Assembly (NCBI GenBank): GCA_021325275.1
Contig: JAJPHL010000043.1
Coordinates: 1 to 59,450, forward strand
DNA length: 59,450 bases
Source of the DNA: Terriglobia bacterium
Lineage (GTDB): Bacteria > Acidobacteriota > Terriglobia > JAJPHL01
Direction: 5' to 3'
Shown: positions 34,609-40,403 of the stretch, one piece after another
How positions within the stretch are numbered: the first letter of the stretch is position 1
Layout: each line of letters starts with the position of its first letter
Translations under genes and position numbers: made by a program
Notes under the pieces: model-generated
Told to the model about the DNA's origin: nothing
The model's input: only the letters and a program-made list of their open reading frames with translations
Database searches by the model: none

Positions 34609-34691
34609 AACGTGAATCACGTTAATACATATGGTCCTAGTGCCCTGATATGGGGCACTTCATAGCTGTTTGGTATACAATTTTCGACAGC
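34609..34691 (+). promoter_or_regulatory. PilZ-gene promoter region with palindrome and hairpin
   Basis: A 15-nt palindrome AACGTGA-a-TCACGTT (34609-34623) and a hairpin AGTGCCC/GGGCACT with loop TGATATG (34639-34659) precede TATACAAT (34674-34681), a -10 candidate. The ATG at 34692 follows about 10 nt later. The palindrome is a candidate operator. Confidence 0.4.
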
Positions 34692-37600
34692 ATGTCTACT
34701 GCTTCCGATTCCCATGATTCCGGCCGCCGCAAACGCCGCAGTCCGCGCTTGGCCAAGGCCGTAGAAGTGCGCCTCGCCGGACGCGGCGCGTCGGGTGACG
34801 TGATCGTCGAGGACGCGCTTACCGCCGACATCAGCAAGCACGGCGCTTGCATCGGCAGCCGCAATCGCTTCCCGCTGGGATCGCCGATCGCCATTCGCCG
34901 CCCCAATGGAAAACCGATGCGCGCGCGCGTGGTTTCGGTGAAGACCGGCTCGCCCGACGGCACGTTTCTCACGGGCGTGGAATTTGTCGGCGAAGAAGCG
35001 GCGTGGGATTTGGAATTCCCCGTCGAATGGACCGATTATTTCAATCGACCCGAGGAAACGGCCGCGCCCGCTAGCTCAGGACCTTCGCGCCAAGCCGCCG
35101 GCGCGGAAGATCGCGCGCTCGAAGGCATGCTGCGCAAGGCGCAAGCGCTACGCGCGTCCGCCGAAAGCATGTTGGCCGAGTATGCCGCGCAAGTGGACGG
35201 CGCGCGCCGCCAAAACACTTCGGTGCTGGCCGCACAGGTGGAAGAATTTCACGCCTGGAAGAGCATTCTCGAAACGGAGAGCGCCAGCCAATTTGACGCC
35301 GCGAAGAAAGCGCTCGAATCCGAGCGCGAGCGCGCCCGCCAACAGATGGAACTGGACACCGCCGAAGTCACGCGAAAAATCCAGGAGATCGCGAAACAGG
35401 GACAAGCGGCGCTCGCGGCCGGTGAAGAGCTTTTCAATCAACTGCGCGTAAGGGAGTCGCAGAAGAACATCAGCCAAGTGGCGCGCATCACTGCGCAATT
35501 GGAAGCGCAACGCAAGGCCATGCAAGTGCTCGAGGAGCAAGCCGCGGAATGGCGTCAGCAATCGTCGGCGCACGTGGCGGCGTTGGACCGCGAGTTTCAA
35601 GCGTTGCAGCAAAAAGTCGCCGCCGAGATGCAATCGGGGGCCGCTAACGCGGTCACCGAGTTCCGCAAGCGCATTCCGGCGATGAGCGAGGAGTTGGAAC
35701 AACATTTCGGCGCCTTCCTCGAGCAGCAGAAACTCGGCGCCACGGCGTGGCTCGAACAGGCCGGCAAGAACTTCCGCAGCGGATCGTCGGCGCTCGAACA
35801 GGACCACCGCGCGGCGCTCGACGTCGCCACCAAGAAAGCCCTGGACGATTTTTCGGCGCGCTTCTCCGAGCGCATGGAGGAATTCCGCAAGACCAGCGAG
35901 AGCGTCGCCGAACCGTTGGAAGCTCGCCAAGAGCGGATGCGCAAGATGCTGGAGGAGATGGCTGCGCAGACCGAGAGCCTCATCGAGCGGGCCCGGCACG
36001 AGTCCATGGAAGCGGTGGAAAAGGCGGCCGAGCATTTGAAGGAGACATCCGCCGCGCGCGTCACGGCCGTGACCGACGCCGAAGCCGCGGCGCGCAAGCG
36101 CCTCGATCTGGCCGGCGAAGCGCTGATCTCCAGCGCCCACGACACCCATCGCCGCGTCGATCAAATGTCGCTCGATCTGGAAGCGCTCGGCGCCAAGCTG
36201 CATCAGCAGTCGGCCAAGAATCGCGCGGACCTCGAAACGCAATTCGCTACGCTGCTGGCGATGTACGACAATCGCAAGGCCGGACTCGACAAACTCGTGG
36301 AGACGATCGAGACGGGCCGAGCCACTTTGCGCGATGGTCTCGAGTTGCTGCGCGTGAATCGCGAGCAGCATCAGGCGCGCTTGCAGAGCTTCACTGCCGA
36401 TCAAGAAGCATCGCTGCGTTCGCGAACGGCGGAAATGGAACAGCGCTTGGCCGCTGCCCTGCTCCGCATGGAAGGCGAGTTGCGCGCGCAAGCGTCGGCG
36501 TCGCTCGATGCCGCGCATCAAGGATTCGTCGGCCGCCTCGATACGACGGCGGGAGAAAGTCACAAGCGCTTCGCGGAGATCGTCGACCAGCACGTGCAAG
36601 GCGCGGCCACGCGCATTCCTGAGCTGGTCCGCGAACTTGACCGCACGCTCGAGCAGCATTCCGGCACGTTAGCCGCGGACTTGACGGCCCATCAACAAGC
36701 GATGGCGCGGGCACGCGAGAACTTCGAGCAACTGTCGCGCGACACGGCCGACCGCTTGCGCGAACAGCACGAACGCTCCTCGAACGCTGCGCAAACGGCG
36801 CTGACGGCGGCGCTGGCCGCGGTGGAGGATCGTCAAGCATCGGCAGCCACCGCGATCGGCAGCCAATTCAAGGAAATCCAGCAGCAGCGCGAGGAAGCCG
36901 CGCGTCAACACGCCGCGCACGAGCAAATGGTGCAGAAGTGGCGCTTGGGTTTGGAAACCGAATTCAAGACGCTCTCCGCCAAGCTCGATGAAAAGCGTGT
37001 GGCGCTCGACGCGTTCTACGCCCTGGCCGAGCAGAACAAGGCCGCGTGGGTGAAACACATGGGCGCCATCGACCGCCGCATCGAGGACGCGCGCAACACT
37101 ATCGCCGCGCAGGAGAAGCAAGCGCTGGCGTCGATGGGCAAGCACTCCGAAGGCTTAGGCGAACATTTACTCGCGCGCCTGCGGCAGTCGCTGGATACCG
37201 CGCAGACCGAGTTGAGCGCCGTGACCGAAGCGGCCGAGAGCGTTTTCCAGGCGCGCATCAACGATTTCGCGCAGCAATCGCTGAAGTCGACCGAGCGCCA
37301 GTTGGAACAAGGCGCGAACTCGGTGGCGATGAGCTTGGATCGAACGATGCAAAAGGAACGCCGCGAAAACGAGCGGCAGGCCGAAGAGTTGTCGGGTCGC
37401 TTCCACGATCAATTGCGGGAACAACTCGACAACTATCGCGCCAGCGCCGGTCAAGCCGCCGCCGATTTGCGCATCGAGATGCAGAAGATTTGCGTGGGCA
37501 TGCTCGATCAAGTGAAGGAAGCGCGCGAAGAACTGGCGCGCCACACGCCGACGCTCTTGGCCGAGGCGGAGGAAAGCTTCCGCCGAGCTCTCGAGCGCGT

Positions 37601-37721
37601 CCAAGAGCGCACGCTGCAATCCACGAGCGAGGAATTACGCATGCGCGCGTCGCAATGGAAAGCTCGCGCCGAGATGGGCATGTCGACGCCGGAGTTCGAA
37701 GCGGTCGCTGGGAAAGATTAG
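34692..37721 (+). CDS. PilZ-domain protein with giant coiled coil
   Basis: The 1009-residue soluble protein starts at ATG 34692. The in-frame ATG at 34650 lies upstream of the likely -10 box. Residues about 12-125 form a PilZ domain. Both c-di-GMP signatures are present: RRSPR (15-19) and DISKHG (46-51). From about residue 150 to 1000 it is a continuous Ala/Glu/Gln/Arg-rich coiled coil with heptads such as ATRIPELVRELDRTLEQHSGTLAAD. No transmembrane segment is visible. It may build a rod or filament whose assembly responds to c-di-GMP. Confidence 0.85.
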   Translation: MSTASDSHDSGRRKRRSPRLAKAVEVRLAGRGASGDVIVEDALTADISKHGACIGSRNRFPLGSPIAIRRPNGKPMRARVVSVKTGSPDGTFLTGVEFVGEEAAWDLEFPVEWTDYFNRPEETAAPASSGPSRQAAGAEDRALEGMLRKAQALRASAESMLAEYAAQVDGARRQNTSVLAAQVEEFHAWKSILETESASQFDAAKKALESERERARQQMELDTAEVTRKIQEIAKQGQAALAAGEELFNQLRVRESQKNISQVARITAQLEAQRKAMQVLEEQAAEWRQQSSAHVAALDREFQALQQKVAAEMQSGAANAVTEFRKRIPAMSEELEQHFGAFLEQQKLGATAWLEQAGKNFRSGSSALEQDHRAALDVATKKALDDFSARFSERMEEFRKTSESVAEPLEARQERMRKMLEEMAAQTESLIERARHESMEAVEKAAEHLKETSAARVTAVTDAEAAARKRLDLAGEALISSAHDTHRRVDQMSLDLEALGAKLHQQSAKNRADLETQFATLLAMYDNRKAGLDKLVETIETGRATLRDGLELLRVNREQHQARLQSFTADQEASLRSRTAEMEQRLAAALLRMEGELRAQASASLDAAHQGFVGRLDTTAGESHKRFAEIVDQHVQGAATRIPELVRELDRTLEQHSGTLAADLTAHQQAMARARENFEQLSRDTADRLREQHERSSNAAQTALTAALAAVEDRQASAATAIGSQFKEIQQQREEAARQHAAHEQMVQKWRLGLETEFKTLSAKLDEKRVALDAFYALAEQNKAAWVKHMGAIDRRIEDARNTIAAQEKQALASMGKHSEGLGEHLLARLRQSLDTAQTELSAVTEAAESVFQARINDFAQQSLKSTERQLEQGANSVAMSLDRTMQKERRENERQAEELSGRFHDQLREQLDNYRASAGQAAADLRIEMQKICVGMLDQVKEAREELARHTPTLLAEAEESFRRALERVQERTLQSTSEELRMRASQWKARAEMGMSTPEFEAVAGKD

Positions 37722-39026: not shown

Positions 39027-40403
39027 TTAGACAAGAGCGAACTGCTCTTCGACTGGCTCCGCTCAACAATACCAAGGCTCGTTGAGATACGGAATGTCCG
39101 TACGTTGGAACGCCGGAATATCCGGCAGCCCTGCCGCATGCGCGATGCGCGCGAAAACCTCGCCGCGCGATTGTTTTTCCTTCAGCCCGCCGGACACTAT
39201 GTCTTGAATCTGTGACGCGAGCGCATCCACGCGGGGATCGGCGTGGCGCCAGGGATAAACCAGCGCGGCCTCATCGAATGCGCCTACCGAAATGTCCGGC
39301 AACTCGAGCAATCGCGATCCACCGGGGATCAGCAGACGAATCGCCAACTGCACGGGCGCGACGTGACTCACCAAGTTCCCCGCCGCCAGAATGCGCAACA
39401 ATTCGCGATAGCCTTCGAGCGTGGTCCACGGCGTGAATGGAACAAATGTCGGGTTCAACGTTATCCCGAGTTCGCGGAACATCGCGACAACGCGCAGAAA
39501 ATCCGCGCGCGTGTGACCCTTTTCGAGTCGCGCAAGAATCGCGTCGTCCACCGACTCCACCGCACTTGTTACCATCAGGCATCCTGTGTCGCGAAGCGCC
39601 GGCAAGAGATCCGCGTGCTTGAGCAAGTGCTCGATCTTGATCGTGACGTCATACGAAACACCGGGAAAGGCGCGGTGTAGTTCCTCGACTATCGCGATGG
39701 CGTGTGCCGGTCCGTTGAAAAAATCGGGATCGCCGAAGACGATGTGCTCGGATCCTGCTGCCACTTGGCGCGCGATATCCTCAATGACCACCTCTTTCTG
39801 AACGATCCGAAACGACCCCTGATAGACCGGCACGACAGGACAATGCCGGCATAGATGCTTGCATCCGCGCGACGCTTCGGTGTATCCGGTGACGCGATGT
39901 CCGCCGCCCGGCAGATGCACGAGCGCATAACGCGCGGCGTCCGGCAGTCCGCTGCGATCGGGCGTGAGGAAATGCAGGCGATCAAGGGAAATGATTGGCT
40001 CGGTTTGCTCGGCGCGCACGCCATTTTTCCGACGCGAGTGTTTCAATTGCAAAGCTAGGGTGGCCAACCCCGGCTCGAACTCGCCGCCTAAAATCGTCTC
40101 TCCGCCGATACGGCGTAAAAACGCTTCGTTCATCGGCGCGTACAGACCGTAGAAACAGAGATGCGCTTGGGGATTCAACCGGCGCACGCGCTCAGCCGCG
40201 CGCACGGCGAGTCTGGTGGCCGTGTGCATCGGCAAATGAAATGCCACAAGGTCTGCGCCGCGTACCGAATCGGCGGGAAGTTTATCGCGGGAAAGATCGA
40301 TGGCTTCCACGTCCACGCCCTCGCGGCGCAGCCACGCCGCGGGCGACGCCAGCCCGAACGGTTGACGTCCCATGTCGTACGTGGAAAGAAGCAGAGCCTT
40401 CAT
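39027..40403 (-). CDS. CUAEP-tail radical SAM selenoprotein (B12-binding type)
   Basis: The in-frame TGA at 39065-39063 is read here as selenocysteine. Before it are 446 residues and after it the frame gives AEPVEEQFALV then TAA (39029-39027), making 458 residues. Residues about 1-120 are a B12-binding-like domain. The iron-sulfur motif CKHLCRHC (CxxxCxxC) follows TEASRG, with a TIM-barrel core to residue 400. The tail C-U-A-E-P matches the known CUAEP/CCAEP-tail radical SAM (seleno)protein class. A 17-nt hairpin (AAGAGC/GCUCUU, loop AGUUC) begins 13 nt after the UGA, near the E. coli fdhF SECIS position. The substrate is unknown. Confidence 0.88.
39033..39065 (-). promoter_or_regulatory. Putative bacterial SECIS element
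   Basis: Counting the U of UGA as 1, the hairpin AAGAGC-AGUUC-GCUCUU spans positions 17-33 of the mRNA. It has a 6-bp stem and a loop carrying G and U early in it. In fdhF of E. coli the minimal element is also 17 nt and lies at about 15-31. The match in size, distance and loop content fits SelB recruitment. Confidence 0.75.

Follow-up and report, generated by a model that had tools for sequence, protein, structure and literature searches.

The in-frame UGA at codon 447 of a radical SAM gene in this Terriglobia bacterium is decoded as selenocysteine, with a probability of about 0.93 when taken together with the two-gene module that the radical SAM gene forms with a ligase gene. The window, by which is meant the whole stretch of 59,450 nucleotides that was analysed, carries both genes on its minus strand (Table 1). 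In the proposed reading, SelB and tRNA-Sec would decode UGA447 under the guidance of a hairpin 13 nt downstream, and the product would be a radical SAM enzyme whose 458 residues include a Cys-Sec pair in the C-terminal tail. This enzyme would act with the ligase encoded immediately downstream, in a two-gene pathway present in many soil and sediment bacteria. The selenoprotein status of the family is already known and is contained in its NCBIfam name, so that the window gene adds one more member to an established selenoprotein family. The corresponding repair of the annotation is correct, and NCBI's family library already provides for repairs of this kind.

Table 1. Features of the radical SAM and ligase gene pair, in window coordinates.
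Feature	Position	Strand	Basis
Gene for the CUAEP-tail radical SAM selenoprotein (458 residues, Sec447 counted), with TAA	40403-39027	-	NF040546 at 617.3 bits; PF04055; 60-sequence alignment
N-terminal Rossmann-type domain with B12-binding fold (modelled), residues 1-121; cobalamin binding putative	40041-40403	-	model mean pLDDT 94.9; 1y80 match, Z 12.8
Radical SAM [4Fe-4S] motif C181-x3-C185-x2-C188 (RGCKHLCRHCP)	39840-39863	-	invariant in 60 sequences
UGA codon 447, read as selenocysteine	39065-39063	-	TGA/Cys split in relatives; Sec machinery in genome
SECIS hairpin AAGAGCAGUUCGCUCUU	39049-39033	-	geometry, energy, covariation, contrast with Cys forms, bSECIS rules
TAA, true stop codon	39029-39027	-	sequence and translation
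ATP-grasp L-amino-acid-ligase homologue, 395 aa	39020-37833	-	PF13535; PF18603 (LAL_C2); 3vot; co-occurrence; starts 6 nt past TAA

When TGA is translated as U, the minus-strand frame ends in EPWYC-U-AEPVEEQFALV before the TAA, and the hexanucleotide TTCAAA separates this stop from the ATG of the next gene. Under the standard code the open reading frame ends at Cys446. The sequence-only reading had described this arrangement, namely a UGA within C-U-A-E-P in a frame open to TAA, a next gene beginning 6 nt past the TAA and not past the UGA, and a protein truncated at Cys446 by standard gene calling; each of these points is borne out by the sequence, by its translation and by ORF calling, and a relative in Thermomicrobium roseum is likewise annotated only as far as its TGA. 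That reading had also assigned the tail to a class of radical SAM selenoproteins with CUAEP or CCAEP termini, and the NCBIfam profile NF040546 carries exactly such a name ('CUAEP/CCAEP-tail radical SAM (seleno)protein'). The protein passes the curated cut-off of this profile (500 bits) and aligns through residues 4-456 with profile positions 2-467 of 468. Truncation at the UGA lowers the score to 596.5 bits, the tail past the UGA adding 21 bits, and thus the tail belongs to the family profile. The window protein has in common with the family its whole length, the radical SAM motif and the C-U/C-A-E-P tail, with no substantive difference. The second-best NCBIfam match is ArsL (NF040542, 273.7 bits, below its cut-off of 450), a third family follows at 43 bits, and the only Pfam match is the radical SAM domain (residues 178-322). 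TIGR04167 and TrsS (NF045646), which are also listed among radical SAM selenoproteins (PMC13188914), are separate families, and the window protein has no match to either.

Matches over the NF040546 cut-off were found in 61 of 396 genomes of the phylum, and 80 more loci were drawn from named genomes beyond these, with record titles from Acidobacteria, Latescibacterota, NC10/Methylomirabilota, Gemmatimonadota, Chloroflexi, Calditrichia, SAR324 and Proteobacteria. Among 105 relatives the codon is TGA in 77, TGC in 22 and TGT in 6, so that the Cys in place of U for which the sequence-only reading had proposed to look is present at the same column in 28. In the alignment of 60 proteins C446, C/U447, E449 and P450 are invariant and A448 is nearly so; a lack of AEP conservation in close homologs, which that reading had named as telling against itself, is thus not the pattern observed. 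These data bear directly on the alternative that the UGA is an ordinary stop, with the protein ending at Cys446 and the codons for AEPVEEQFALV serving as the untranslated leader of the next gene. Such a stop agrees with the end of the standard-code frame, but it is highly improbable given the conservation of the tail residues in almost all relatives, the substitution of Cys for the UGA, the extension of the family profile over the tail and the position of the next gene relative to the TAA. The cultured Thermomicrobium roseum DSM 5159 carries a Sec form on a large plasmid (L151:7932-9368), in which the sequence past the TGA encodes UAEPLEDPSGPV and contains a hairpin.

The source genome (6.86 Mb, 97.6% complete) contains the machinery for selenocysteine, that is, selA (422 bits), selB (334 bits), selD (365 bits) and a tRNA-Sec (selC) with anticodon TCA (69 bits, also found by ARAGORN). 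All four genes had been put forward as a check on the sequence-only reading, and selB and selC, whose joint absence would have weighed against it, are both there. Across genomes, selB is present in 36 of 38 with the Sec form, the remaining two having selA, while 5 of 10 with the Cys form are without selB and the same five are without selA; one Sec-form locus (L146, genome G245) was excluded from this comparison because the tail pattern missed it. The chance that all five Sec-less genomes among the 48 would fall in the Cys group is about 1.5e-4 under random placement, a figure that ignores kinship. This distribution of the machinery is the pattern expected of a Sec-dependent gene, and we infer that selenium is incorporated at residue 447. 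The selD gene of the source genome (L016, G000:C2:117482-118408) is itself interrupted in frame by a TGA (AAGUASK), past which lies a strong hairpin (-18.7 kcal/mol); its product, selenophosphate synthetase, is thus probably another selenoprotein of this organism.

The hairpin that the sequence-only reading had placed 13 nt past the UGA, with a length of 17 nt, is found there, with a stem of 6 bp, a 5-nt loop (AGUUC) that has G at its second position, and a distance of 19 nt from UGA to loop. The SECIS of E. coli fdhF resembles it in position, in the sizes of stem and loop and in the loop G. With the bacterial SECIS consensus it agrees in position, in stem and loop sizes and in a G within the first two loop positions, while its own sequence differs. 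Published bSECIS rules specify a loop of 3-9 nt with a G among its first two positions, a stem of 4-16 bp, a spacing of 16-37 nt between UGA and loop and an MFE of at most -7.5 kcal/mol (PMC13188914). The window hairpin obeys these rules, with an MFE of -7.5 to -9.1 kcal/mol over 33-48 nt past the UGA, but of -6.7 over 30 nt. Considered alone, however, this hairpin is thin evidence and only mildly unusual: a stem of such length has P of about 0.02 under synonymous codon choice, and the stability of the 57 nt past the UGA is not out of the ordinary (z = 0.48). Because of this weakness the case for a SECIS element rests on the relatives.

Stems average 6.2 bp over the 75 unique Sec-form genes, as against 2.70 +/- 0.14 in a codon-preserving null (maximum 3.21 in 500 draws), which places the average about 25 null standard deviations over the synonymous expectation. 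The 26 unique Cys-form genes have a mean stem of 3.3 bp versus 2.6 in their null, and the Sec and Cys forms differ strongly in stem length (Mann-Whitney p = 6e-10). Covariation was assessed in the 55 unique genes whose loop is 5 nt long, in which 97.0% of pair cells hold standard pairs. More specifically, 64 cells have changes on both sides of a pair, compared with 14.2 +/- 7.0 in shuffled data (0 of 500 shuffles as high), and when the partner is slid by one to three bases the pairing is only 38-60%. The folding check that had been suggested for the region past the UGA is therefore answered both by the bSECIS rules and by covariation across relatives. The loop is 5 nt long in most members, one subgroup keeps the stem with a 4-nt loop, and six Sec-form genes retain the stem only with a mismatch.

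The alternative that these data address is a read-through of the UGA by other means, such as a near-cognate tRNA, a mutation or an assembly error, with the hairpin a by-product of coding. The unremarkable odds of the window hairpin by itself would suit this alternative, but the sharing of TGA by 77 relatives in several phyla, the excess of stem length in the family as a whole, the compensatory changes in the stem, the loss of the hairpin in most Cys forms and the presence of the Sec machinery in the genome leave it scarcely credible. Two Cys forms, L073 (TGC) and L077 (TGT), still form a hairpin of 6 bp where the SECIS would lie and are perhaps recent changes from Sec to Cys.

Selenocysteine decoding agrees as well with the way in which codon and hairpin change over the phylogeny. 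In a FastTree phylogeny of 123 proteins, built with the tail excluded, there are at least 11 changes between Sec and Cys on supported branches and 16 on the best tree. Of 11 independent pairs, about 9 have hairpin and codon changing in the same direction (median p = 0.004 by sign test), where the hairpin call includes a hand-made rule added for the mismatch subgroup. These natural switches, at least 11 in number, are ready material for judging what difference selenium makes to an enzyme of the radical SAM type.

The gene immediately downstream encodes a homologue of ATP-grasp L-amino-acid ligases, for which peptide-bond formation is predicted from sequence. Its product scores over the cut-offs of PF13535 (101 bits) and PF18603 (LAL_C2, 38 bits), and the nearest solved chain is the L-amino acid ligase BL00235 (3vot, 232 bits). 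It is alike over its length to BL00235 and BacD, with the LAL_C2 domain, but passes no NCBIfam cut-off for named ligases. A ligase homologue lies inside the stretch read in 73 of the 105 loci, mostly directly downstream and otherwise on the other strand or upstream. Among the 396 genomes of the phylum, 63 have both genes, 2 the radical SAM gene only, 4 the ligase only and 327 neither (Fisher p of about 1e-65, a value that ignores kinship). The two genomes with only the radical SAM gene are 71% and 74% complete. The ligase-only genomes, in which no radical SAM gene exceeds the cut-off, are G278, G017, G057 and G226; G278 is 96% complete, and its radical SAM gene has therefore been either lost or replaced by another enzyme.

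Within family f2 most genomes have neither gene and the same four (G073, G121, G210 and G265) have both, and joint gain or loss of the two is also seen within f28, f48, f30 and f60. In several genomes, for example G132 and G377, the two genes are on different contigs, and thus their link is not one of local synteny alone. By these patterns of gene content the ATP-grasp gene is a near-obligate partner of the CUAEP radical SAM gene. On plasmids no ligase relative was found at E 1e-30, and the T. roseum partner was not located.

Judged by sequence similarity, the nearest relative with a characterised pathway is ArsL, a kinship that the sequence-only reading had overlooked, as it had the ligase partner. 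Residues 4-400 of the window protein align with the ArsL profile at 274 bits, short of its cut-off. The ArsL tail is RCCLKC, whereas the window protein has WYCUAEP after an extra linker, and only the vicinal CC/CU aligns, with Sec in place of Cys in the window protein. The alignment of these vicinal residues suggests a common role in holding an acceptor beside SAM. In both plasmids inspected, from Alicyclobacillus and Priestia, ArsL also has an ATP-grasp gene nearby (L152:1436-2668 and L153:1741-2964, respectively) together with arsinothricin resistance genes, although these ligases are only 23-26% identical to that of the window. The near-obligate pairing suggests that the two enzymes form a pathway akin to that by which arsinothricin, an arsenic antibiotic, is made. 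The word ATP-grasp is absent from the 2021 arsinothricin paper. Neither the ligase partnership nor the link to ArsL was met in the accessible literature, and within that limit both are apparently unstated before. No open paper on the CUAEP family, NF040546 or the RCCLKC tail was found; the likeliest papers on selenoprotein families were outside reach, so the family may be described there.

From genetic evidence, ArsL is predicted to break the C-gamma bond of SAM and transfer the 3-amino-3-carboxypropyl (ACP) group to As(III), the transfer of this group being a prediction only (PMC8552651). By analogy, the window enzyme may cleave SAM reductively to a 3-amino-3-carboxypropyl radical that would pass to an acceptor bound at the Cys-Sec pair. 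The amino acid so formed, X-CH2-CH2-CH(NH2)-COOH, would then be joined by the ligase to another amino acid. Such a product would resemble methionine, and BL00235 prefers methionine as first residue. This ArsL-like chemistry is a tentative proposal and somewhat unlikely as it stands; speaking against it are the 274 bits obtained where 450 are called for, the lack of a recognisable arsenic gene among the conserved neighbours examined, and the nearest folds (AprD4, MgmA, OxsB and TsrM), which do other chemistry.

An AlphaFold2 model (m36606df55378), built from 60 aligned relatives, has a pTM of 0.92 and a high mean pLDDT (Table 1), with the last 20-30 residues less sure (70-81). In the predicted fold a radical SAM barrel comes after a Rossmann domain of the B12 type, and the best solved matches are AprD4 (Z 27.6), MgmA (25.9), OxsB (25.8) and TsrM (25.0). 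These matches, together with MiaB, the corrinoid-protein fold of the N-terminal domain and the weaker profile scores to HpnR and other B12 radical SAM families, may point to a B12-dependent enzyme of the methylase or methylthiolase type in which the Cys-Sec pair would be a redox pair, a methyl acceptor or a chalcogen carrier in place of ACP transfer. Such an enzyme is plausible at somewhat under even odds. Against it stand the wide margin by which ArsL is the closest characterised family (274 bits versus 43 for the next) and the absence of a Pfam B12-binding match in a protein whose first domain resembles 1y80. The modelled fold does not itself decide the reaction, because its top match, AprD4, is titled a diol dehydratase. 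This alternative concerns the inferred chemistry and not the decoding of selenocysteine, and reactions beyond both chemistries take the remaining probability.

If ACP transfer does take place, arsenic is one conceivable acceptor. The kinship with ArsL, the common vicinal Cys/Sec at the C-terminus and the ATP-grasp genes close to ArsL on the two plasmids would agree with a gene pair whose product is an arsenical amino acid like arsinothricin, or a peptide of it. This is nevertheless quite improbable, given that the conserved neighbours of the 105 loci include no recognisable arsenic gene, that the ligases of the two systems are so divergent and that the ArsL cut-off is missed. A broader form of the ArsL-like proposal, speculative and on balance doubtful, is that of a widespread and unrecognised pathway in which the Cys-Sec pair would hold a metalloid, metal or chalcogen, an aminocarboxypropyl group would be attached to it, and the resulting amino acid would be ligated into a small peptide. 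If true, organo-element natural products or cofactors of a new class, not based on arsenic, would be made by a route similar to that of ArsL. With a near-obligate ligase partner and a characterised relative in ArsL, the selenoprotein family gains a pathway that is testable with two purified proteins.

Other conserved neighbours of the radical SAM gene encode NfuA-like, YggX-like, aconitase-like and DUF169 proteins, each in 8-18 of the 105 loci; as partners these were set aside, their occurrence having the look of local synteny. A DUF169 (COG2043) gene is found near the radical SAM gene at L069, L071 and six other loci, mostly just downstream, and at L069 and L071, where the stretch read holds no ligase, it is a possible alternative partner. 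Within the window, a plus-strand ORF of 1023 aa (34650-37721), for which no confident Pfam family was found, is convergent with the ligase gene and has the look of a long coiled coil.
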